In this document: positions 6,300-39,090 of the stretch, in pieces | Position numbering within the stretch: position 1 is the stretch's first letter | How the letters are laid out: each line of letters starts with the position of its first letter | IMG/VR virus record: IMGVR_UViG_3300021136_000017 | Span: 1-45,321 of that record | DNA length: 45,321 nt | Source of the DNA: a virus | Strand: one strand, 5' to 3' | Made by a program: the position numbers and the translations under genes | The notes under the pieces: generated by a model | Database searches by the model: none | Seen by the model: only the letters and a program-made list of their open reading frames with translations | What the model was told of the DNA's origin: nothing

Positions 6300-9200
6300 A
6301 TGAGTAGAGCTTTTAATACGATTAATTCATCGGACCGTTCTACAACTCCTATTAAATTACGTTATACTGCATCCTATAGTAGTGCTACATTTAGTAACTA
6401 TGGTATTTCTGTTCTAAGAGGAATTAATGGTCAAATAAATATAAGTGGATCTGTTCAACAGAGCACGCTAATTTATTACTCTGCGAAACAACTTTTTTAT
6501 TCTAATTTTACTACTGGATCTTATTTATCTACGGGTTCTAGTTTTGATAATTCTTTACAATCTAGTGCAGCTTCAGGAACTTTTGATGCTGATGTTAGAT
6601 ATTTTCCTACAGAATCAAATGCACAGATATCTGTACTTTCTATTCCAAGAAATGTTTTTGGAGAAAATATAGGACGAAATAGTTTTATTTTATCATCTTC
6701 TTTATATTATATATATGATGACGGAAATGGAAATGTGCTAGCTACTAGTGGCAGTTCTTTTGTTCATGTAGGTAATATTTTATACAATCAAGGAATAGTC
6801 ATAATAACAAACAAAGATTATTTAGGAATATTCCCTCCTGATTGTACATTAAGTGGATATGCAACTGAACAAATACCTAGTCCAAGTCCTACTCCGACTA
6901 TTTCAGTTACACCTAGCATAACTCCAACTATTTCAGTTACACCTAGTATAACTCCAACTATTTCAGTTACAGTATCAATTACTCCTAGTGTAACACCGAG
7001 TATTACTCCTAGTATAAGTAAAACACCTAGTGTTTCTGTTACTCCTAGTGTATCAACAACTCCTGGATTATCTCCTAGTATAACTCCTAGTATAACACCT
7101 AGTATATCTGTTACACCTAGCATAAGTATAACTCCTAGTGTAAGTATAACTCCTAGTGTATCTGTTACACCTAGTGTATCTATAACACCTAGTATTTCTG
7201 TTACTCCTAGTATTTCGGCTACTCCTAGTATATCAGTAACACCTAGCATATCAGTTACTATTAGTGTAACTCCTAGTATTTCTGTTACTCCTAGTGTATC
7301 AACAACTCCTGGATTATCTCCTAGTATAACTCCTAGTATAACACCTAGTGTTTCTATTACACCTAGTGTGAGTATAACTCCTACAGTTTCTATTACGCCT
7401 AGTGTAAGTAAAACACCTAGTGTAAGTATAACTCCTAGTGTATCTGTTACACCTAGTGTGAGTATAACTCCAACAGTTTCTATTACACCTAGTGTAAGTA
7501 TAACTCCTAGCATATCTGTTACCCCTAGTGTAACTCCTAGTATTTCTGTTACTCCTAGTGTAAGTCTTACACCGAGTATCTCAGCTACTCCTAGTGTTTC
7601 AATTACACCTAGCATAACTCCTAGTATATCAGTAACACCTAGCATATCAGTTACGCCTAGTGTATCAACAACTCCTGGATTATCTCCTAGTATAACTCCT
7701 AGTGTAACTCCTAGTATTTCTGTTACGCCTAGCATTTCAGTTACTCCTAGTGTAACTCCTAGTATATCAGTTACTCCTAGTGTAAGTAAAACTCCTAGTG
7801 TTTCAATTACTCCTAGTATTTCAGCTACTCCTAGTGTAACTCCTAGTGTATCTATAACACCTAGTGTATCGATTACACCTAGTGTAAGTATTACACCTAG
7901 TGTAAGTATAACACCTAGCGTATCTATTACCCCTAGTGTAACACCTAGTGTTTCAGTTACTCCTAGCATATCAGTTACTCCTAGTATTTCTGTTACACCT
8001 TCAGTATCTGTAACTCCTAGTATTTCAATTACACCTAGTGTAAGTGTAACTTCTAGCGTAAGTATAACTCCTAGTGTATCAGTTACTCCTAGTATTTCTG
8101 TTACTCCTAGTATTTCAATTACGCCTAGTATAACTCCTAGTGTTTCAGTTACTCCTAGTATTTCTGTTACACCTTCAGTATCAGTTACTCCTAGTGTAAG
8201 TAAAACTCCCAGTGTTTCAGTTACTCCTAGTGTAACACCTAGTATATCAGTAACACCTAGTGTATCAGTAACACCTTCTATATCTGTAACACCTAGTGTA
8301 AGTATAACACCTAGCATATCTGTTACCCCTAGTGTAACTCCTAGTATTTCTGTTACCCCTAGTATATCAGTAACACCTTCTATATCTGTAACGCCTAGTG
8401 TAAGTATAACTCCTAGTGTTTCAGTTACTCCTAGTATTTCTGTTACACCTTCAGTATCAGTTACTCCTAGTGTAAGTATAACTCCCAGTGTTTCAGTTAC
8501 TCCTAGTGTAACACCTAGTGTATCAGTAACACCTAGTGTATCAGTTACCCCTAGTGTTTCAGCTACTCCTAGTGTAAGTGTAACACCTAGTGTTTCAGTT
8601 ACTCCTAGTATTTCTGTTACTCCTAGTATATCAGTTACTCCTAGTATTTCAATTACACCTAGTGTAACACCCAGTGTTTCAGTTACTCCTAGCATATCAG
8701 TAACACCTAGTATATCAGTTACTCCTAGCGTATCTATTACACCTAGTGTAAGTGTAACTCCTAGTATATCAGTAACACCTAGTGTAAGTATAACACCTAG
8801 TGTAAGTATAACACCTAGTATATCTGTAACACCTAGTGTATCAGTTACTCCTAGCATATCAGTAACACCTAGTGTTTCTGTTACACCTAGTGTTTCTGTT
8901 ACACCTAGCATTTCAATTACGCCTAGTATATCAGTAACACCTAGTGTATCAGTTACTCCTAGTGTTTCTGTTACACCTAGCATTTCAATTACGCCTAGTA
9001 TATCAGTAACACCTAGTATATCAGTAACACCTAGCATTTCTATAACTCCTAGTATTTCAATTACACCTAGTGTAAGTGTAACGCCTGCAGTATCAGTTAC
9101 ACCTAGTATATCAGTAACGCCTGCAGTATCAGTTACACCTAGTATATCAGTAACGCCTGCAGTATCAGTTACACCTAGTGTTTCTGTTACACCTAGTATA

Positions 9201-10058
9201 TCAGTAACGCCTGCAGTAAGTATATCTCCTACTCCGAGTACTTCACCTCCTGCAAACTTTGCAAATACTATTTATTTAGCTACAAATGCATATGATTCTT
9301 GTAATGGAGCAACTGTGCCTGGTACACCTGACGCAAATGCGGGCACTGGCGGTACTACTACTGGAACTGGTGGTAATGCTCCTACTTTCTGTGCAAGCAC
9401 AACATTCACAAGTAGTACTTTTGCTACTTTAAATACAGGAGTATACTATATTCAATTTAATAGTTGTTCTCCTGGAGGAACTAAAGAATCACCAAGTTGT
9501 AATCCAGTATATTTAGCTATTAATGTTACTAATGGTAGTTCATTTGCTACAGTTAATACTGGATTTACACCAACTTGTGGAACATGTCCTCAACCATCAC
9601 CTACACCGTCGCCTAGTCCTACTCCAGCAGTAAGTAATACTCCAGCAGTATCAGTTACTCCAGCGGTAAGTAGTACACCTAGTATATCAGTTACTCCAGC
9701 GGTAAGTAGTACGCCTAGTATTTCAGTATCAGTAACTCCTGCAGTGTCAGCTACTCCTAGTGTAACACCTAGCCATTCTCCATCTGTATCAGTTACTCTA
9801 GCTAAAGGTTTACCACAATTACCTAGTAGTTCATCATGTACTCCAGGTGCTAATCTTAATATTTACTTAAATTCAACAGATAAAGCTACATATACAGCAA
9901 ATGGTGGATTCTTTGGAGTTGGAATGGTTGCTAGAAATTCATCAGGAACTCCTATAAATGGAATTATTTATGTATATGATATTAATGATGCTGTACAAAC
10001 TACATATACAATTGCAGCTAGTACTGGAGTAATGACTGCAAGAGGTCATCAATGTTAA
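6300..10058 (+). CDS. Fibre-like structural protein with ~790-residue TPS(I/V)S repeat stalk
   Basis: 1,252 residues in five parts. Residues 1-190 form a Ser/Tyr-rich globular domain ending in FPPDC. Residues ~196-983 are a low-complexity stalk of TPS(I/V)S(V/I)-type units of five to six residues, with a few TPS-only short units. Residues ~984-1100 are a Cys-containing domain, ~1101-1175 a second Pro/Ser stretch (TPAVS units), and ~1176-1252 a terminal Cys-containing domain. The layout suggests a virion anchor, a long flexible stalk and distal binding domains, as in tail or head fibres; that role is inferred. The start follows a short A-rich leader, and the gene lies between structural genes. 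No homology to a named fibre family was recognised. Confidence 0.8.
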   Translation: MSRAFNTINSSDRSTTPIKLRYTASYSSATFSNYGISVLRGINGQINISGSVQQSTLIYYSAKQLFYSNFTTGSYLSTGSSFDNSLQSSAASGTFDADVRYFPTESNAQISVLSIPRNVFGENIGRNSFILSSSLYYIYDDGNGNVLATSGSSFVHVGNILYNQGIVIITNKDYLGIFPPDCTLSGYATEQIPSPSPTPTISVTPSITPTISVTPSITPTISVTVSITPSVTPSITPSISKTPSVSVTPSVSTTPGLSPSITPSITPSISVTPSISITPSVSITPSVSVTPSVSITPSISVTPSISATPSISVTPSISVTISVTPSISVTPSVSTTPGLSPSITPSITPSVSITPSVSITPTVSITPSVSKTPSVSITPSVSVTPSVSITPTVSITPSVSITPSISVTPSVTPSISVTPSVSLTPSISATPSVSITPSITPSISVTPSISVTPSVSTTPGLSPSITPSVTPSISVTPSISVTPSVTPSISVTPSVSKTPSVSITPSISATPSVTPSVSITPSVSITPSVSITPSVSITPSVSITPSVTPSVSVTPSISVTPSISVTPSVSVTPSISITPSVSVTSSVSITPSVSVTPSISVTPSISITPSITPSVSVTPSISVTPSVSVTPSVSKTPSVSVTPSVTPSISVTPSVSVTPSISVTPSVSITPSISVTPSVTPSISVTPSISVTPSISVTPSVSITPSVSVTPSISVTPSVSVTPSVSITPSVSVTPSVTPSVSVTPSVSVTPSVSATPSVSVTPSVSVTPSISVTPSISVTPSISITPSVTPSVSVTPSISVTPSISVTPSVSITPSVSVTPSISVTPSVSITPSVSITPSISVTPSVSVTPSISVTPSVSVTPSVSVTPSISITPSISVTPSVSVTPSVSVTPSISITPSISVTPSISVTPSISITPSISITPSVSVTPAVSVTPSISVTPAVSVTPSISVTPAVSVTPSVSVTPSISVTPAVSISPTPSTSPPANFANTIYLATNAYDSCNGATVPGTPDANAGTGGTTTGTGGNAPTFCASTTFTSSTFATLNTGVYYIQFNSCSPGGTKESPSCNPVYLAINVTNGSSFATVNTGFTPTCGTCPQPSPTPSPSPTPAVSNTPAVSVTPAVSSTPSISVTPAVSSTPSISVSVTPAVSATPSVTPSHSPSVSVTLAKGLPQLPSSSSCTPGANLNIYLNSTDKATYTANGGFFGVGMVARNSSGTPINGIIYVYDINDAVQTTYTIAASTGVMTARGHQC
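6885..9246 (+). repeat. Tandem degenerate 15-18 bp repeat encoding TPS(I/V)S(V/I) stalk
   Basis: Over 100 copies of a unit of the type CCTAGTATTTCTGTTACT, with synonymous and I/V variation. Nearly every unit has CCTAG. A longer segment reading STTPGLSPSITPS occurs three times (about 7050, 7295 and 7662), so blocks of several units have been duplicated. The third positions vary between neighbouring units while the protein pattern holds, which suggests selection on the peptide. Confidence 0.95.
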
Positions 10059-11709: not shown

Positions 11710-12183
11710 ATGGGAAATTGGTTACACGAAGGGAAAGAGTACACAAAAATAAATGACTTCCCCGATACTGCAGTTGGCTTTGTTTATAAAGTTACTAACA
11801 CAAAATCCGGCAAATTCTACGTCGGTAAAAAGATCCTTAGGAATGTATTGACCAAAAAACTAACCAAGAAAGAAATTTCCGAATGGGTTAAACCTGGTAG
11901 GATTCCAAAGAAAAGAAAGGAAGTAAAAGAAAGTAATTGGACAGATTATTACGGTTCTAGTAAACTTGTAATGGAAGACATTAAACTCTTGGGTAAGGAC
12001 GCATTCACTAGAGAGATACTAAAGATCTGCACCGCAAAAAAACAAATGAGCTATTGGGAGACCTATTATCAAATGGTAATGGAAGTTTTAAGTGTGGATT
12101 CCTATAACGAAAATGTTTTAGGAAAGTTCTATCGTAGAGACGTGTCCCCCGCTGTCCCGGACTTACAGGACGATGAAGAATAG
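11710..12183 (+). CDS. SegE-like GIY-YIG endonuclease
   Basis: 157 residues. The GIY-YIG signature reads GFVY at residues 23-26 and YVG at 37-39, with the following KK. A downstream block (YYGSSK, then KDAFTREILKIC and a YWETYYQ helix with a Glu) matches the SegE-type nuclease domain of T4-like phages. It probably makes site-specific DNA breaks that spread its own gene. Base composition is visibly more GC-rich than the flanking structural genes, which suggests separate acquisition. It ends in TAG at 12181 and runs into a terminator hairpin shared with the convergent genes. Confidence 0.8.
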   Translation: MGNWLHEGKEYTKINDFPDTAVGFVYKVTNTKSGKFYVGKKILRNVLTKKLTKKEISEWVKPGRIPKKRKEVKESNWTDYYGSSKLVMEDIKLLGKDAFTREILKICTAKKQMSYWETYYQMVMEVLSVDSYNENVLGKFYRRDVSPAVPDLQDDEE

Positions 12184-12215: not shown

Positions 12216-12234
12216 GGAGCTTCTAAAGAGCTCC
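12216..12234 (-). terminator. Hairpin terminator between convergent units
   Basis: GGAGCT, a 7-nt loop, then AGCTCC forms a 6-bp stem. Read on the minus strand it is followed by TTTTCTTTTTTC, a good intrinsic terminator for the 12756-12223 operon. On the plus strand the following bases include a run of seven T after five other bases, so it may work weakly in both directions. The stop codon of the minus-strand gene lies inside the loop. Confidence 0.8.
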
Positions 12235-12438
12235 ATTTAAGTTTTTTTGTTTATCTTTTATTAATGTCTTTAACATAGGAATTAAATAATAAGCCTCTTT
12301 ATCACCTTGATATAATTCCCCGAGTTTCTTTTTTAATTTACTAATTGAATAATCTTTCCATCTATCTTTAAACCAAATAATCATTTTTTGCTTATGATTA
12401 TCATCTTCTTTTAAAAGATCTACTAATTTTATTGCCAT
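12223..12438 (-). CDS. Small protein with capsid-targeting-like N terminus (MAIKLVDLLKED)
   Basis: 71 residues. The first 12 residues, MAIKLVDLLKED, are almost the same as those of the upstream gene (MAIKLTDLLKED), while the rest of the two proteins is unrelated: here a basic helical domain (WFKDRWKDYSISKLKKKL). A shared, detachable N-terminal tag ending in L-K-E resembles the T4 capsid-targeting sequence of internal proteins (MKTYQEFIAEA), which the prohead protease cuts after (L/I)-x-E. A basic body would suit DNA packaged in the head. This role is inferred. It is the second gene of a two-gene operon that ends at the hairpin. Confidence 0.7.
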   Translation of the reverse strand: MAIKLVDLLKEDDNHKQKMIIWFKDRWKDYSISKLKKKLGELYQGDKEAYYLIPMLKTLIKDKQKNLNGAL

Positions 12439-12444
12439 TTTTAC

Positions 12445-12756
12445 TTATTTAATTTTAATTGAATTAACAGCTGATTCTAGTTGTTTAATACAATCTTCTT
12501 TTTTAGTTATCGGTTTTTCTGTTTTATATAGAGTATCTCCATAAGATTCATGAAAAGAAGATTGACTTCTAAATCCAGTTGCAGGTAAAGTACCTGATGA
12601 ATATTTTTTTAGATATCCAGTAAATCCTGTTTTAGTTTGCACAATAACTCCAGCAATCTTAAAAGCTAGTTTATTTAATATCATAACATCTTTTATAAAA
12701 ACATTTTTTTCTTCTGTATTGTCTTCTTTTAAAAGATCTGTTAATTTTATTGCCAC
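12445..12756 (-). CDS. Small protein with capsid-targeting-like N terminus (GTG start)
   Basis: 103 residues starting at GTG; no ATG lies in frame at a suitable place, and the tag MAIKLTDLLKED supports this start. After the tag the body is basic (pI clearly high by Lys count), with TGFTGYLKKYSSG and a C-terminal helix. It is first in a two-gene operon with 12223-12438, 6 nt apart, and is preceded by GCATATTTATT 17 nt upstream. It is possibly an internal head protein, for the reasons given for its partner. Confidence 0.7.
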   Translation of the reverse strand: MAIKLTDLLKEDNTEEKNVFIKDVMILNKLAFKIAGVIVQTKTGFTGYLKKYSSGTLPATGFRSQSSFHESYGDTLYKTEKPITKKEDCIKQLESAVNSIKIK

Positions 12757-12772
12757 TGTAATTATTTTACTA

Positions 12773-12782
12773 ATAAATATGC
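12773..12782 (-). promoter_or_regulatory. GCATATTTAT motif, candidate late promoter element
   Basis: On the minus strand GCATATTTAT stands 16-17 nt before the GTG at 12756. The same ten bases occur at about the same distance before the genes at 17202 and 39090. Confidence 0.4.
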
Positions 12783-12835
12783 ATATTAATACATAAGACT
12801 TCTGTATTGGATGCCTTTATTGTAAGATCCAAGTA

Positions 12836-13837
12836 TTATTCATACATTAAACCTTTATGTTTTACCTCATCTAAAAATTCCGGTCTATTAGATAAATTAA
12901 ACGTATCGGGAAAAATCCAAGTATAAGGAATTTGTTTGGTTGGTTTTTTTGCGCCATGATTTATTGCTACATGTTTCCACCATAGGCAGCTTTTATCTTC
13001 TATGTTCAGATACTTCTGGGAAGTCATGGGGTTTAAAGGGTGATTGACTAATAGATCCATCTGATATAACCATTGGTCTGCGTATTTGTTCTGAGAGATA
13101 AACTCCCCATTTTCACTTATAAGATATTTAACTTTCCCGTTTAAATTCTGTCCACCGAAGATTTGATGTAGTCCATCAAAATGGCCTGTACCACCGAAAA
13201 GAATTGATTCTGGGTCCACTAGATGTGGATAACTCATTGCAATGTATCTAGCCGTATTTTTACAAGGATACAAAGGACTTCTAAATCCTTGGTGCTTTTT
13301 AAAATAAGCTTCAAGTATTTTAGCGAATCCCATCATTGTCCACGGTGTTGAATTATTTCCATTTTCTATGTCCTGTAAAAGGTAAGCAAGATCTTTGGCT
13401 GCTTTTGCAGGGCCATCCAAAATCCAATCTTTTACGTTAGTTCCCTTTGGATAATAGATTTGAAATAGATCGTTTCTTGCGTGTCTGTTTTGCGTAAAAT
13501 GTTGTCTTGTGGCTTCAATACCTTCATTTTTTAGTTTCATGAAAGTTCCCCAATGTTCGTTAGTAAAACTAAAAACAAGGGTATAAAACATTCTTAATTC
13601 GTTGTCTGTAACTTGCTGCATCACAGTGCAGTAGGGATGCTCAGCCCATAATAATCTATGACTAAAAATTTGATATTCATCTTTCAATAAACCATCGTCT
13701 CTTTGATCAAATTTTTGACAGAATTCAAAGAACTTTTCAATTCTTTGTTCCAAAGACCAGTCTTTCATCCAAGAATCTATAGGTTTTTTACCTTTGAATT
13801 CTACTTCGCAAGTCGATGGATATAGTATATCACTCAT
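12836..13837 (-). CDS. Phage protein, diverged paralogue of the 13839-15008 product; possible DNA-modification enzyme
   Basis: 333 residues, soluble, rich in aromatic residues. A central segment reads KDLAYLL, then GFRSPLY and YPHLVDPESILFGGTGH. The neighbour has the equivalent QDIAKFL, GLRAYRF and FPDFVDRESSFYYGKNA in the same order and spacing, so the two are paralogues. The all-helical layout with conserved Asp/Glu/Ser reminds me of the predicted amino acid:DNA transferase and glycosylase-like families of phage thymine hypermodification, but this is from memory and weak. It lies 1 nt after the upstream stop, third gene of the 15345-12836 unit. Confidence 0.6.
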   Translation of the reverse strand: MSDILYPSTCEVEFKGKKPIDSWMKDWSLEQRIEKFFEFCQKFDQRDDGLLKDEYQIFSHRLLWAEHPYCTVMQQVTDNELRMFYTLVFSFTNEHWGTFMKLKNEGIEATRQHFTQNRHARNDLFQIYYPKGTNVKDWILDGPAKAAKDLAYLLQDIENGNNSTPWTMMGFAKILEAYFKKHQGFRSPLYPCKNTARYIAMSYPHLVDPESILFGGTGHFDGLHQIFGGQNLNGKVKYLISENGEFISQNKYADQWLYQMDLLVNHPLNPMTSQKYLNIEDKSCLWWKHVAINHGAKKPTKQIPYTWIFPDTFNLSNRPEFLDEVKHKGLMYE

Positions 13838-13838
13838 A

Positions 13839-15008
13839 TTATTTGTATAGTTCGTTTACTTTTTCTTTGTATTGTTCTTCTGTAATTAGCAAAGATTTAA
13901 TCACTTTATCGTCGGATGGGTGCGCTGACATACCGTTAAAGCTTGGTACCAAACCAAGATCTAGCATTGCTTTTTGTCTACCGTAAGGGTGATCTTTAAT
14001 AGAAGAGCTATTCCAAACATGGTCAAAATCTAAATGATCATAGTCATGTCCTGGACGAACATAATTTTCAATCCATCTAATAAAATCACAAGCAATATCT
14101 TCAGCATTATATGGAAAACTACCAGTATCATCATAAATTTTTTTCATTGTAAGATCTAAGAAAGTTAGCTCATCCATCTTAGATGATTTAGTAGCTAAAT
14201 AACTAATACACTCTTTTGCATTTTTACCATAGTAAAATGAACTTTCTCTATCTACAAAATCTGGGAACCAATCTGCAATATCAGCAATAAATGCAGCATA
14301 TTGAAATCTATAAGCTCTTAATCCATTATCATAATTCCATTTAAACATGAAATCTCCTACTTCCCTTAATTTCTTTTTCTCACCTGATTCTAAAAATTTA
14401 GCTATATCTTGACAAAGTCTTGGAGCGAATTCGCATAAATAATAATCACCACCTCTTTTATAACTTTCTATAGGTTTTGGAAAACTAGGAAATTGATAAC
14501 CAACAGACGTATAAAATGGTCTAGATGCAGCTTTAATAACTTCTGTCATATCTTTAGTATTTTGAGCCTCGTACATATCAGTTAACAAAGTGTTGTAATA
14601 TCCTGATGGTTTCTTCGCATAATGAATTCCTGATCCAGTTATCCTATGAAATAGAAATAGATACAACCAATCTTCTAAATTAAAAATTTTCTGTTTCCCA
14701 GTCCACTGTTCTGTAATTTGTTTTCTTTGTGGAGTCATTATTCCAGCTTGCATTTTATGAAAATAAGGATGATCTTCACTATATCCATAGAATACATCAT
14801 TTATAATCTGAGAGAATCCAGCATACTTTCTTTCAACAACATCATATAATTCAACATGCTTCATTAAATCATCTTGAATAGATGTATCCGCGTGTTTAAT
14901 AATACCTAAATTACACTCAGCTTGTTGTATCGTTGCCATTTTAAAATATCTAAGAAATTCATCATAATATTTTGTTGGTGTAATAAATTTATTTGGTTTA
15001 GATTCCAT
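13839..15008 (-). CDS. Conserved phage protein, paralogue pair; possible DNA-modification enzyme
   Basis: 389 residues from the ATG at 15008 (MESKPNKFITPTKYYDEF). The frame stays open 51 codons further up, but that extension lies inside the upstream gene and looks non-coding. Motifs visible are HRITGSGIHYA (~155-165), TSVGYQFPSFPKP, RGGDYYLCEFAPRLCQDIA, REVGDFMFKWN and ADWFPDFVDRESSFYYGKNA. These are strongly conserved-looking and enzyme-like. I associate the pattern with uncharacterised T4-like phage proteins and, weakly, with predicted base-hypermodification enzymes. It overlaps the upstream gene by 11 nt (ATGGAATCTAA), which suggests translational coupling. Confidence 0.7.
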   Translation of the reverse strand: MESKPNKFITPTKYYDEFLRYFKMATIQQAECNLGIIKHADTSIQDDLMKHVELYDVVERKYAGFSQIINDVFYGYSEDHPYFHKMQAGIMTPQRKQITEQWTGKQKIFNLEDWLYLFLFHRITGSGIHYAKKPSGYYNTLLTDMYEAQNTKDMTEVIKAASRPFYTSVGYQFPSFPKPIESYKRGGDYYLCEFAPRLCQDIAKFLESGEKKKLREVGDFMFKWNYDNGLRAYRFQYAAFIADIADWFPDFVDRESSFYYGKNAKECISYLATKSSKMDELTFLDLTMKKIYDDTGSFPYNAEDIACDFIRWIENYVRPGHDYDHLDFDHVWNSSSIKDHPYGRQKAMLDLGLVPSFNGMSAHPSDDKVIKSLLITEEQYKEKVNELYK

Positions 15009-15345
15009 ATCGGTAATTTTTCTTTTCTTGTTTATGTGAGAAGGTTGTAATTTCTTGAGCAGCGATCTTCTTGAAAGTTTCTTCAACGGCTTGAGTATAA
15101 TATTCTGGGTCTGATTTAAGGGGACTTGTATTGTCAACCCATTCTTGTTTTGCATGTCCAAATCCTAAAATTTTAATGTATGAAGATCCTTCTTGTTTTA
15201 GCGCTATTTCTTTTGTTTTTTCTATTGCTTGTTCTAAAGATTCTGCTTCTACACAACAAACATAATCTCTGCAAATATTCCAATTATTAATAAAAAATCG
15301 ATCATCTTTATAATGAAGATAATATATTACATAAGGTCTTAACAT
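14998..15345 (-). CDS. Hypothetical protein, first gene of the paralogue-pair unit
   Basis: 115 residues: MLRPYVIYYLHYKDDRFF, a Cys pair in YVCCVEAESLEQAIEKTKEIA, and a Lys-rich end. An alpha/beta fold of the ferredoxin-like kind is possible from the strand-helix pattern. It starts at an AAATAAAAGTTATG leader typical of the non-late units here and overlaps the next gene by 11 nt. No family recognised. Confidence 0.7.
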   Translation of the reverse strand: MLRPYVIYYLHYKDDRFFINNWNICRDYVCCVEAESLEQAIEKTKEIALKQEGSSYIKILGFGHAKQEWVDNTSPLKSDPEYYTQAVEETFKKIAAQEITTFSHKQEKKNYRYGI

Positions 15346-15414
15346 AACTTTTATTTATATAAATGTAAAAAATTTTGGTGATTTAAAACAATATATCTTT
15401 CATGTTATAGCAAG

Positions 15415-15439
15415 AAAAAACCCCGGTGACTAGCCGAGG
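15415..15439 (-). terminator. Intrinsic terminator after the 17202-15472 operon
   Basis: On the minus strand CCTCGG, a 7-nt loop and CCGGGG form a 6-bp stem (one G-T pair) followed by TTTTTTC. It lies 33 nt after the stop of the 84-residue gene and 70 nt before the next start, so it closes the operon. Confidence 0.8.
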
Positions 15440-15471
15440 CTTTAAGCATTTTGAACATGTATGATTACGAA

Positions 15472-15726
15472 TTAATATTCTTTCTTGTATCTTATAAAAG
15501 CTTTTTTAACAAGGTTTAAGATTTCTTGTTCAGAGCCTTTACCTGATCTTAATATGTCGAATACACCAGATTCAATTTGCTGACCACCTTTTGTATTTTC
15601 CAATCCACGATAAGTAACAGGAAAATTTTCTCCGTCGTCTTTAAAACGTTTGGTTGTTTGAATACTGCTTTCTTTTTTTACAGGAAATTCTTCTAATAGA
15701 CTTTTTAATGTGATGTTCTTTTTCAT
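15472..15726 (-). CDS. Small protein with capsid-targeting-like N terminus
   Basis: 84 residues starting MKKNITLKSLLEEFPVKK: the pattern hydrophobic-x-x-L-L-E-E fits the tag seen in its operon partners (L-E-E at residues 11-13). The body is basic and polar (TTKRFKDDGENFPVTYRGLENT, in two parts), with a C-terminal helix. It is last in a four-gene operon that ends at the hairpin at 15415-15439. Start and upstream stop are 1 nt apart. It may be an internal head protein. Confidence 0.65.
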   Translation of the reverse strand: MKKNITLKSLLEEFPVKKESSIQTTKRFKDDGENFPVTYRGLENTKGGQQIESGVFDILRSGKGSEQEILNLVKKAFIRYKKEY

Positions 15727-15727
15727 T

Positions 15728-16129
15728 TTACCTGTGATGTTTTTGTTTTGCGTTATTTATATACATTGTTAATAAAGCTTCCGGACCATCTTGTAGGTTA
15801 CCGTCTGCTTGAGGATCTTTTACCTTTTTCTCTATAGCATGAACTGTTTCTATACAGTGTTTCTTGATAGTCCTGTCACTATGGCCAGCATCTACTAATT
15901 TACATATAACATCGTACAGTCTTGCTCCGCCTTCCTGCCAGAACTCACCCCTTATCATAACGTCGGCTTTATCGTAATCTACTCTGTCCCATTCTGGGTC
16001 GGCCTCCATTATGTAATACTTAGATGCGTAATCATTGTCGTAAGTATTACCGCCTTTTTCATCGTATTTAAACGTAGCACCAAATTTTTGTTCTGTGATG
16101 TATTTTACGATGTCAAAGTTATTTTTCAA
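15728..16129 (-). CDS. Capsid-targeting-like N terminus plus FWxxGG domain
   Basis: 133 residues starting MKNNFDIVKYITEQKFG (I-T-E at 11-13). The middle contains RGEFWQEGGARLYDVICKLVDAGHS, which matches HDRFWEVGGREISRAVENLLDDGFH of the upstream gene: both have FWxxGG then a helix ending in (A/D)G. The two proteins therefore share a domain as well as the N-terminal tag. No known family recognised. It lies 2 nt after the upstream stop in the operon 17202-15472. Confidence 0.65.
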   Translation of the reverse strand: MKNNFDIVKYITEQKFGATFKYDEKGGNTYDNDYASKYYIMEADPEWDRVDYDKADVMIRGEFWQEGGARLYDVICKLVDAGHSDRTIKKHCIETVHAIEKKVKDPQADGNLQDGPEALLTMYINNAKQKHHR

Positions 16130-16131
16130 GA

Positions 16132-16947
16132 TTACATTTGTTTAATGAACTCTATAATATCATTCATATGAAAACCATCATCTAATAAATTTTCTACTGC
16201 ACGTGAAATTTCTCTTCCTCCAACTTCCCAAAAGCGATCATGATATGGAATCTCATCATCGTATCCCGGTTCTTCTGCATCAAATTCTTCTAAATCGTCA
16301 GGATGTATAACACCCTTTATACCGCTTAATGCACCAGTACCATCTTGAGATAAGTCAGAATGTTTATAGTCTTCATCCATTTCTTCATGACTATTTTGAT
16401 CCATCCATTTTTTAATAATTGGATATATTGTTTCTGCGTACTCTTCAAAAGATCCAAATTCGTCTTGTTTTTCCGAGTAGATCATTTCTTGATCTGGATT
16501 TCTTTCTGCAAAAATAGCTTCTATGGGAGTACCTGGTTGATTATCCCATTTAGGAGTCGCAGCGAAGAACATATCTTGATCTGCACCTTGCTTGTCCCAA
16601 GTGATGATTCCTGGATACTCATAGTTAACTATGAATTCTCCAACTTGTTCTCCATCTATATCATGCATCCAAGCGTTATCTTTAACCTCTTGTTCGTGGT
16701 CTGCCTCAGGTTCTGCATAAATTTTATTAGGAGCTGGTTTTTTAGGGCCTAAATAAGTTTCATCTTCTCTTAGATCATTGGTATACCCTTTGAAAGTGTT
16801 TCCACCCCCAACTGGCATTAAATCTATATAGTTCTCATTGAGAGATCTATTAGATTTTTTCTTAGTCGAGGTTTTTTTAATTACTCCGTAAGGACCACTC
16901 TGGTTTTCTTTTAGAAATTTCTTAATGTTGAATTGATCTTGTGACAT
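16132..16947 (-). CDS. Acidic protein with capsid-targeting-like N terminus and FWxxGG domain
   Basis: 271 residues. It starts MSQDQFNIKKFLKENQSG (L-K-E at 12-14), followed by a basic linker with TKKKSNRSL, then a long acidic region rich in Asp/Glu, Trp and Pro. The end holds the FWEVGGREISRAVENLL domain shared with the next gene. A cleaved N-terminal tag followed by a basic stretch would suit a head-targeted protein. An ATATTTATTA motif precedes it. It is second in the four-gene operon. Confidence 0.65.
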   Translation of the reverse strand: MSQDQFNIKKFLKENQSGPYGVIKKTSTKKKSNRSLNENYIDLMPVGGGNTFKGYTNDLREDETYLGPKKPAPNKIYAEPEADHEQEVKDNAWMHDIDGEQVGEFIVNYEYPGIITWDKQGADQDMFFAATPKWDNQPGTPIEAIFAERNPDQEMIYSEKQDEFGSFEEYAETIYPIIKKWMDQNSHEEMDEDYKHSDLSQDGTGALSGIKGVIHPDDLEEFDAEEPGYDDEIPYHDRFWEVGGREISRAVENLLDDGFHMNDIIEFIKQM

Positions 16948-16965
16948 ATTGATATTTGTGTATAA

Positions 16966-16975
16966 TAATAAATAT
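16966..16975 (-). promoter_or_regulatory. ATATTTATTA motif before gene at 16947
   Basis: On the minus strand ATATTTATTA stands 18 nt before the ATG at 16947, overlapping the stop of the upstream gene. It differs from the other copies of the late-type motif by its last bases. Confidence 0.3.
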
Positions 16976-17202
16976 TAATTGTTTAGCCCTGATACTAGAT
17001 CATTTAGTTTCTTTCTTAAAGATTCTAAATTTGTGTGTAACTCTCCCTTAAATTCTTGATCTATTTGCATTTCTGCAATACGATTCTCCATGTCTTCAAC
17101 AAATTCAATGCACTGATTCGCCATTCCTTGAGGAGAAAAGTCTATACTATCATTAGCATACTCTCTCATTAACCACTTTTGTAAATCGTAAGATCCTTGC
17201 AT
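16975..17202 (-). CDS. Small acidic helical protein with capsid-targeting-like N terminus
   Basis: 75 residues, MQGSYDLQKWLMREYAND: L-x-x-W-L followed by M-R-E, a slightly irregular version of the tag. The rest is a two-helix, coiled-coil-like acidic domain (QCIEFVEDMENRIAEM, then LESLRKKLNDLVSGL). It is first gene of the four-gene operon and preceded at 17-18 nt by GCATATTTATA. Possibly an internal head protein or scaffold component. Confidence 0.65.
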   Translation of the reverse strand: MQGSYDLQKWLMREYANDSIDFSPQGMANQCIEFVEDMENRIAEMQIDQEFKGELHTNLESLRKKLNDLVSGLNN

Positions 17203-17219: not shown

Positions 17220-17230
17220 TATAAATATGC
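17220..17230 (-). promoter_or_regulatory. GCATATTTATA motif, candidate late promoter element
   Basis: On the minus strand GCATATTTATA is 17 nt before the ATG at 17202; the same eleven bases occur before the gene starting at 39090. Confidence 0.4.
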
Positions 17231-23231: not shown

Positions 23232-23309
23232 AACTTATTTATTTTTATTACTGGGTGAATATATGAGGTGAGTTTTGACCCACCCCGTTTTGTTTAAATG
23301 ATGTAAATG

Positions 23310-23382
23310 TACACCTAGTCGGATTCGAACCGACACTGAATAGATTCTAAGTCTATTGCCTCTCCCGTTGGGCTACAGGTGC
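23310..23382 (-). tRNA. tRNA with UAG anticodon (reads CUA), type I, short variable loop
   Basis: Seventy-three bases fold as a full cloverleaf. The acceptor is GCACCTG/TAGGTGT with G-U at both ends, and the D-arm GCC/GGC. The anticodon stem is ATAGA/TCTAT around loop CTTAGAA, variable loop TCAGT, T-arm GTCGG-TTCGAAT-CCGAC and discriminator A. The anticodon (23347-23349 on the plus strand reads cta) is UAG, which decodes leucine CUA. The five-base variable loop is unlike leucine tRNAs, which have a long variable arm. CCA is not encoded. The body resembles Arg(UCU)-type phage tRNAs as I remember them, so its charging is uncertain. Confidence 0.9.
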
Positions 23383-26413: not shown

Positions 26414-26961
26414 GATTGATTTTTTAATTCATTAATCTTTTTCAGTAATTCATCTTTAAAAATATAATGTCTGCCGTTTGAATTATTATGGTAGCATTGT
26501 ACATCCGTCCACTTTTCTAATTCTTCCAAGTGGTTGTTAGCTTTGTAGCCTTCGATGAATGCGTTAACCTTATCGTACATTCTTTCATTATGCTTTGTAG
26601 TCATTATATCTCTTTCTAAGTTCCAATAAAAATCATACGGCAACACTATTAGAAAATCTGATTTTAATTTATATTGTTCAATCATATCTTCATTTTCTAT
26701 TGAGAATGAAAAGTCCTTATAAACTATTGCAAACTTTCTATACGCATCTGCCATCTTCTCTATGGATGGGGAAGTAGGTTGTTCTTTAGCATCTGTTATA
26801 GTCCATCCTCTTTCTACTTCTTCTGTCTTTGGTTCAAGGGAGTTTAAGTAAATTCTTAAAAGTTCTTCCAATGAGTTATTAGCTTTGAGTTGTGCTATTT
26901 CTTTTTTGAGTGCATAAATTTCATTATTCAATAACCTTTGTCTTGTTCTATAAGACTGCAT
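26410..26961 (-). CDS. Modular hypothetical protein sharing segments with 28188-29156
   Basis: About 183 residues if started at ATG 26961 (MQSYRTRQRLLNNEIY); ATGs at 26973 and 27009 are alternatives, all overlapping the upstream gene. A coiled-coil start is followed by LLRIYLNSLEPKTEEVE, GWTITD, EQPTSPSIEKM and, near the end, EGYKANNHLEELEKW. The same phrases in the same order occur in the 28188-29156 product, and the DNA is almost identical over 40-50 bp blocks. Recombination between the two genes is likely. Function unknown. Confidence 0.65.
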   Translation of the reverse strand: MQSYRTRQRLLNNEIYALKKEIAQLKANNSLEELLRIYLNSLEPKTEEVERGWTITDAKEQPTSPSIEKMADAYRKFAIVYKDFSFSIENEDMIEQYKLKSDFLIVLPYDFYWNLERDIMTTKHNERMYDKVNAFIEGYKANNHLEELEKWTDVQCYHNNSNGRHYIFKDELLKKINELKNQS

Positions 26962-27271
26962 TACATCCCTCATTACTTTCGGTAGTTGGGATATATCTTG
27001 ATGAATCAAGTTCTTCGGGATAACTATATTTTGAAGTTATATCTTTAGCAAATTTTGCTTGTTCAACAAAAAATGGTTCATTGGTATAATCTTTCAATGC
27101 CCTTTCAAGTAGTATAGCTTTCCTGCCATTTTTCCAAGCTATATCAACTATTATTTCTAGTGGGTAATTCTTTATAGCGTGTTCTTTCCAATTATCACCA
27201 AATGTTGCGGTTATAAATGGCTTTTCAACATTAGATTCTATTTCTGTTATTATTTCTTTAAATGGTTTCAT
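26948..27271 (-). CDS. Hypothetical protein
   Basis: 107 residues: MKPFKEIITEIESNVEKPFI, FGDNWKEHAIKNYPLEI and IAWKNGRKAILLERALKDY. Mostly helical. It overlaps the following gene's start by 14 nt or more. The 27286-27317 hairpin stands before it and separates it from the 27723 gene. Confidence 0.65.
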   Translation of the reverse strand: MKPFKEIITEIESNVEKPFITATFGDNWKEHAIKNYPLEIIVDIAWKNGRKAILLERALKDYTNEPFFVEQAKFAKDITSKYSYPEELDSSRYIPTTESNEGCNAVL

Positions 27272-38619: not shown

Positions 38620-39090
38620 TTATTTTTTCTTTTTCTTTTTGGTCTCATTCATATACTTATGCATCATATCTCCACCAACTTCATCCATTCCCATTTCATG
38701 CTCTTCAGGCGCTTTTGATCCTTTTAATAGTAATTCCTTTATAGATTTTTTAATCTCAACCATTGCGTCCAAATACTCTTCTAATTGTTCAGCATCATCA
38801 GGAGAAAGTCCTTGTTTTAGTCTCTCTATTTCCATTCTTGATTCACTCATTCTACCCTCTCTCATTTTATTACCTTCACCTGATTTAAATGATTGCTCTG
38901 GATCGTATCCATAAGCTATTGCTTTGGTCATACCACAATGGGCGCACTTGGCTTTTTCTTTGCCAATTTTCTTCCACTCATGATGAGTATTATCAGGACA
39001 GATTTCGTCTTCTGATTCTTGTAAATTGGTATAATTTCCTCTAAAAGTATTTAGAGTATTCGCGTACGCTATTGGACTAATGTAATTCAT
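38620..39090 (-). CDS. Hypothetical protein with zinc pair and LQES site; late-type leader
   Basis: 156 residues: a polar start with NYTNLQESEDE (L-Q-E at 23-25, a possible prohead-protease site), then KAKCAHCGMTKAIAYG, an acidic helical half (LSPDDAEQLEEYLDAMVEIK) and a poly-Lys end. Cys24-like residues at the start of the domain (EICPD) and CAHC can form a zinc site. It is a single-gene unit, preceded by GCATATTTATA and closed by a strong terminator, as for the head-targeted candidates. The role is inferred from these signals. Confidence 0.6.
   Translation of the reverse strand: MNYISPIAYANTLNTFRGNYTNLQESEDEICPDNTHHEWKKIGKEKAKCAHCGMTKAIAYGYDPEQSFKSGEGNKMREGRMSESRMEIERLKQGLSPDDAEQLEEYLDAMVEIKKSIKELLLKGSKAPEEHEMGMDEVGGDMMHKYMNETKKKKKK

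Follow-up and report, generated by a model that had tools for sequence, protein, structure and literature searches.

Six genes on the minus strand of a 45,321-base virus record (IMG/VR record IMGVR_UViG_3300021136_000017, the whole of which is referred to here as the window) are arranged in two operons and encode otherwise unlike proteins that open with a similar short sequence. On the sequence comparisons described below, these starts are best read as T4-type capsid-targeting tags on exchangeable cargo, an interpretation we consider probable. The tagged set is much larger than these six genes, each phage having some 10-20 of them.

The window is only part of a genome and contains no prohead protease gene. 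A 66.6-kb contig of the same virus (IMGVR_UViG_3300021138_001350), identical in sequence across the window, extends it by 8.15 kb to the left and around 13 kb to the right; the left extension carries genes that read as those of a contractile-tail baseplate (spike, gp25-like and gp6-like). The source seems to be a freshwater virus of Bacteroidota-type bacteria. Among cultured phages, the closest at the DNA level is Flavobacterium phage vB_FspM_immuto (immuto; 160 kb; host LMO8), in whose annotation a capsid assembly protein of the gp20 type appears together with a prohead core serine protease and gp23. Megablast and tblastn searches against annotated phages gave no match for the tagged region or for its 271 amino acid (aa) protein. 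Of the contigs compared, L018 (sample 3300021139) is identical to part of the window; L004 is a strain variant of the window virus, the four-gene operon being 98.7% identical; and L026 is a close relative, with a GIY-YIG neighbour gene 85% identical to that of the window.

Tagged genes of the window

All six open reading frames (ORFs) of the initial annotation are present with the tags and starts it gave, two of them beginning at GTG and TTG codons. They are listed here with their isoelectric points (pI) and with empirical P values from a position profile, which was trained on six sister phages only, the window virus being held out.

12223-12438, minus strand: 71-aa tagged protein; tag MAIKLVDLLKED; basic body, pI 9.6; missing from strain variant L004
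12406-12438, minus strand: tag of the 71-aa protein, residues 1-11; P=0.0005
12445-12756, minus strand: 103-aa tagged protein; tag MAIKLTDLLKED; GTG start; basic body, pI 9.4
12724-12756, minus strand: tag of the 103-aa protein, residues 1-11; P=0.0010
15472-15726, minus strand: 84-aa tagged protein; tag MKKNITLKSLLEEF; basic body, pI 9.5; homologues in L030, L024 and L028; P=0.0037
15728-16129, minus strand: 133-aa tagged protein; tag MKNNFDIVKYITEQ; TTG start; P=0.0023
16132-16947, minus strand: 271-aa tagged protein; tag MSQDQFNIKKFLKEN; acidic; zero null windows reach its score
16975-17202, minus strand: 75-aa protein with a looser tag, MQGSYDLQKWLMREY; P=0.11

All six tags lie in these two nearby operons. 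Five fit the expression hydrophobic-x-x-hydrophobic-[LI]-x-E strictly, but the sixth, that of the 75-aa protein, does so only loosely, such that the pattern proposed for all six holds in its strict form for five; the L030 homologue of the 75-aa protein does fit (YDIQKWLLE, containing IQKWLLE). That the bodies are unlike one another was upheld by profile and blast searches, with one exception: the 133-aa and 271-aa proteins resemble each other over a short C-terminal stretch, as noticed by eye and weakly backed by L026:7417-7701, which matches both. Three of the six proteins are small and basic, and three are acidic. The tag DNA of the 103-aa gene is nearly identical to that of the 71-aa gene, and the 103-aa protein has a homologue in G006, a contig with a Peptidase S77 protease. 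A possible seventh tagged protein lies outside both operons, with a start much like T4 MKTFKEFIKED/MKTYQEFIAEA:

26948-27271, minus strand: possible tagged protein, 107 aa; MKPFKEIITEIESN; P=0.0013

Protease, head-gene cluster and tag exchange

The gp21-like prohead protease for which a search had been proposed was found not in the window or the 66.6-kb contig, but in relatives: Peptidase S77 is present in immuto and, when 12 other related contigs were searched, in 10 of them; the remaining two are incomplete (64 and 23 kb). Nine of the ten S77-bearing contigs were reached via the GIY-YIG gene bordering the tagged island of the window, and the tenth (G005) via the MAIKL tag. In the window itself, the plus-strand gene at 11710-12183 likely encodes the GIY-YIG protein adjoining this variable island; it is the 'NAD synthetase' of relatives, and PHROG homing-endonuclease families match it too. 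L226, from the same sample as L018, has an S77 protease (Pfam E=2.3e-27; PHROG head maturation protease 6e-49) together with gp22-like and gp23-like genes.

Tagged genes are also found within the head-gene cluster of relatives. A MAIKLKDLLKE gene sits between the protease and gp22/gp23 in L017, a 213-kb contig, and FNLKKYISE and LAGIITE genes lie between the protease and gp22 in L287 and L280. Extra ORFs matching the pattern account for 4 of 19 inside the core cluster, against 16 of 340 downstream of gp23, these being small numbers. At the presumed cut site of gp23, all 68 sequences read [VI]-x-E, which is consistent with a protease that would cut after hydrophobic-x-E.

Four types of tag (xIKLxxLLxE, FDLxKF, MQxLAGI and SQLxxxI) are spread over 102 body clusters, 78 of which are singletons; some of the 102 will be chance matches, type A most of all. 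With xIKLxxLLxE excluded, the remaining three types head 36 of 1586 clade genes and 1 of 1072 genes in six control phages (P=2e-7), the patterns having been drawn up on the same clade in which they were counted. Individual bodies can be found with different tags. The body encoded at immuto 102294-102869 has relatives in G011 and L280 that are 66-71% identical, yet no two of the three share a tag type (MKKSELVKLIKEEL, MDNFDLKKFLVENK and MAQFINEAKRWQQLAGIITE); a more distant relative in G006 has yet another start, and the L280 copy sits between the protease and the scaffold gene. Tag exchange is also seen in two further families, whilst other apparent mixed-tag families were lost under stricter clustering and were dropped. 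Relative to the window, strain variant L004 lacks the 71-aa gene and has gained two other tagged genes; this gain and loss of cassettes (L004:7003-8028) has one junction at the tag. The comparison of L004 with the window, the body clusters and the exchange of tags all show a common tag joined to dissimilar bodies, which differ from strain to strain. The tag DNA at the L004 junction is a possible recombination hot spot.

Cargo, expression and alternative readings

The bodies had been described as unrelated to known internal proteins, and no credible PHROG or Pfam match was found for any of the six: PADLOC, PHROGs and Pfam gave nothing reliable, and none showed similarity to the bodies of the T4 internal proteins (IPs) IPI, IPII and IPIII. 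AlphaFold models were poor, with predicted local distance difference test (pLDDT) scores of 41 for the 133-aa protein and 57 for the 103-aa protein, and a fold search with the low-confidence 103-aa model gave no match. In L026, however, the window's locus encodes a 182-aa protein with the tag MAIKLADLLNE (L026:1577-2125) that is an ADP-ribosyltransferase (phrog_832, E=2.5e-12; T4 ModB, E=8.6e-6), R, S and E-x-E motifs being present in its sequence; T4 ModB itself has no tag. Elsewhere in relatives, tags head zeta-toxin-like kinases, cytidylyltransferase and deoxyribonucleotidase-like domains, a nucleotidyltransferase and a protein resembling histone H1. By far the larger part of the tagged bodies has no match. 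Also at the window's locus, a 127-aa tagged ORF on the minus strand of L024 (10733-11116; MKLMSLLLEM) has no profile match but contains LYHGT...FVTND, which recalls another ADP-ribosyltransferase class. In Pelagibacter phage HTVC008M (106562-107224; L195:6562-7224), a zeta-toxin-like kinase follows the tag-like start MIPFILKEG, which suggests that the tagged-cargo theme may extend to pelagiphages.

Tags that target the prohead core could alternatively be carried by building blocks of that core, acting as T4 gp67, gp68 and IPIII do in assembly, and not by injected effectors. Several tagged genes do lie inside the core cluster, most tagged proteins have no recognisable enzyme domain, and three of the window bodies are small and basic like the T4 IPs, which co-purify with gp22 (PMC9026906). 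However, bodies differ between near-identical strains, unlike core scaffold genes, and relatives carry enzymes as cargo (ADP-ribosyltransferase, zeta-toxin-like kinase and nucleotidyltransferase); we view this alternative as less likely than the effector reading.

It is appreciably less likely that the tags have a role outside the head, such as binding RNA polymerase or each other, being either amphipathic helices of a generic kind at the N terminus or a pattern that arose by chance. The pattern is short, matching around 2% of internal stretches, and a baseplate-cluster protein and a terminase match it too. The fixed expression was compared between residues 1-20 and an equal span inside proteins. 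It matches the N termini of 9 of the 123 genes of the 66.6-kb contig, 3.4x the internal rate (P=1.4e-3), and the enrichment is 3.7x in immuto (P=4e-6), 4.0x in G009 (P=2e-7), 2.8-2.9x in G006 and G008, 1.8-1.9x in G005 and G011, and 2.8x in T4 (P=4e-4). Enrichment was seen only in S77-bearing phages, those without the protease having ratios of 0.5x (crAss001), 1.3x (phi14:2) and 0.5x (phi38:1). The same expression also recovers T4 head proteins, with 15 hits where around five would be expected by chance; these include IPII, IPIII, Alt, gp24 and gp2, all head-associated, of which gp24 is annotated as cleaved by gp21. Alt is an ADP-ribosyltransferase that is packed in the head and injected, gp24 is the shell vertex protein and gp2 protects the DNA ends. 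The different tags found on one body also speak against this reading, as do the late-type promoter elements that precede the tagged operons:

12216-12234, minus strand: terminator-like hairpin at the end of the 71-aa gene, kept in L004 although the gene is missing there
12773-12779, minus strand: late-promoter-like TATTTAT before the operon of the 103-aa and 71-aa genes
15417-15443, minus strand: terminator-like hairpin after the four-gene operon
16968-16974, minus strand: late-promoter-like TATTTAT before the 271-aa gene
17221-17227, minus strand: late-promoter-like TATTTAT before the four-gene operon

In the window virus, TATTTAT lies within 50 bases upstream in three of three tagged leaders and four of five structural leaders, compared with 4 of 50 other minus-strand leaders (P=0.0015 and P=0.001, respectively); this test is partly circular, because the motif was first noticed in the tagged leaders. 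The immuto genome allows a test independent of tagged leaders, with TATTTAT marking the late regions (19 of 27 against 6 of 58, P=4e-8); it also stands before three of the seven tagged genes outside those regions (P=0.05). Late expression of the tagged operons with the head genes is a prediction from this shared promoter-like element. A 156-aa ORF at 38620-39090 on the minus strand of the window has the leader GCATATTTATAG, as in the tagged operon at 17202, and L-Q-E-S near residue 25; its product is perhaps another late head protein.

That the shared starts are mere relics of gene duplication, or of recombination at a common gene-start cassette, would suit the nearly identical DNA of MAIKL tags in neighbouring genes and the strain junction at a tag, but is very improbable given that unlike tag types replace each other on one body and that tag amino acids are kept in distant phages such as L017 despite differing DNA.

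Several observations weigh against capsid targeting and processing as we propose them. No prohead protease is encoded in the window or its 66.6-kb extension, and L226 may or may not be the same virus. The residues that follow E in the window tags are D, D, E/F, Q, N and Y, none of them small, whereas mostly S, T, A or Q follows E at the inferred gp23 site. Homologues of the 133-aa protein have VRE where the window has ITE, some homologues lack the E of the tag, the L026 homologue of the 271-aa protein among them, and the sixth tag is off the pattern (L-M-R-E). The pattern is not specific to head proteins, as a conserved baseplate-cluster protein (left of the window, G002) and a terminase match; these were set aside as not head cargo. 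The T4-like phages S-PM2 (1.0x) and HTVC008M (1.8x) have S77 without significant enrichment, so not every T4-like phage has the tag system. In most other contigs, G008 being the exception, TATTTAT is not significantly richer before tagged genes than before all others.

These points bear unequally on the parts of the proposal. Packaging in the head, as initially suggested, is well supported by inference from S77 in relatives, tags in the core cluster, tag exchange, the T4 control, the L026 ADP-ribosyltransferase and the late-type elements. Cutting exactly at (L/I)-x-E is a weaker prediction, because the residues after E differ from those of the gp23 site and some homologues have no E. In the T4 IPIII tag, residues 4 and 7 serve chiefly in targeting and 8 and 10 in processing, Asp at position 10 stopping processing but not targeting (PMC9026906); as targeting and cutting are separate in T4, the case for targeting is independent of whether the tag is cut. 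Injection of the proteins as effectors is plausible by analogy, fitting both the T4 precedent and the ADP-ribosyltransferase and kinase cargo of relatives.

Under the capsid-targeting interpretation, the N-terminal 10-15 residues would act as T4-type targeting sequences on proteins made late, from promoters of the structural-gene class. The tag, probably an amphipathic helix, would bind the scaffold core of the assembling prohead, such that the protein is built in and remains in the head; removal of the tag by the S77 protease may follow, at hydrophobic-x-E or close to it, this being the weakest step for the tags of the window. The bodies would represent variable cargo exchanged between strains, partly by recombination at nearly identical tag DNA, and at least some, as with T4 IPI and Alt, may be delivered with the DNA into the next host, there to counter its defences or take it over. 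A broader proposal seems to us evenly balanced: that a whole clade of T4-like Bacteroidota phages carries an injected arsenal under rapid exchange, in which around 10-20 different proteins per virion, ADP-ribosyltransferases, zeta-toxin-like kinases and nucleotidyltransferases among them, are loaded by means of four or more head-entry tags that are unrelated to one another and interchangeable. Effectors packaged in the head are difficult to recognise, since conservation does not extend to their bodies; should the tags act as we suggest, they would make it simple to find injected phage proteins from sequence, many of them probably directed against host defences, in a group of widespread, little-studied aquatic phages. 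Unlike tags swapped on one body also constitute a natural experiment on scaffold-core recognition, and immuto being in culture opens the tag hypothesis to direct testing.

Between the tagged operons, two minus-strand genes of around 333 and 390-440 aa occupy 12836-15161. In relatives, an HhH-GPD glycosylase-like gene (L004:3967-4743) stands beside their counterparts, where the window has a 115-aa ORF (14998-15345), and the genes of this region possibly function in DNA base modification. The tail region includes a 1252-aa protein (6300-10058, plus strand) composed mostly of SVTPSISVTPS repeats and encoded by strongly repetitive DNA, and there is one tRNA-Leu gene (23309-23382, minus strand).

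Comparison with known systems

Capsid-targeting tags and variable internal proteins are already known from T-even phages, whose internal proteins are diverse defence proteins with only the tag in common (PMC3012670). Packaged multi-domain effectors and ejected head proteins are likewise an established theme, as represented by polyvalent proteins (PMC5512222) and the ejection proteins of SPN3US (PMC5694885); in the passages of these two papers that were searched, no N-terminal tag was found described as shared and exchangeable in this way. Nor did the literature search, which did not extend to most subscription journals, turn up so large a set in Bacteroidota-type phages, with enzymes as cargo and several unlike tags that replace one another.

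Individual T4 proteins each share some features with the tagged set. The starts of gp24 (MAKINELLRES) and gp2 (MAIFQIINES) are very like MAIKLxDLLKE, although these two proteins are not variable cargo. Alt has its parallel in the tagged ADP-ribosyltransferase at the window's locus in L026, but that protein is short (182 aa) and, compared directly, matches T4 ModB and not Alt, and none was recognised in the window. A likeness is also seen to IPI, IPII and IPIII, which have N-terminal tags of 10-19 residues ending near hydrophobic-x-E (PMC9026906, PMC3012670), and which similarly combine one conserved tag with divergent bodies in a phage group with a gp21-type protease; three of the six window bodies are small and basic as theirs are. 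The phages described here differ from this precedent in the unrelated sequences of the bodies, in having at least four types of tag and more tagged genes per phage, in the enzyme cargo of relatives, and in being of Bacteroidota type.

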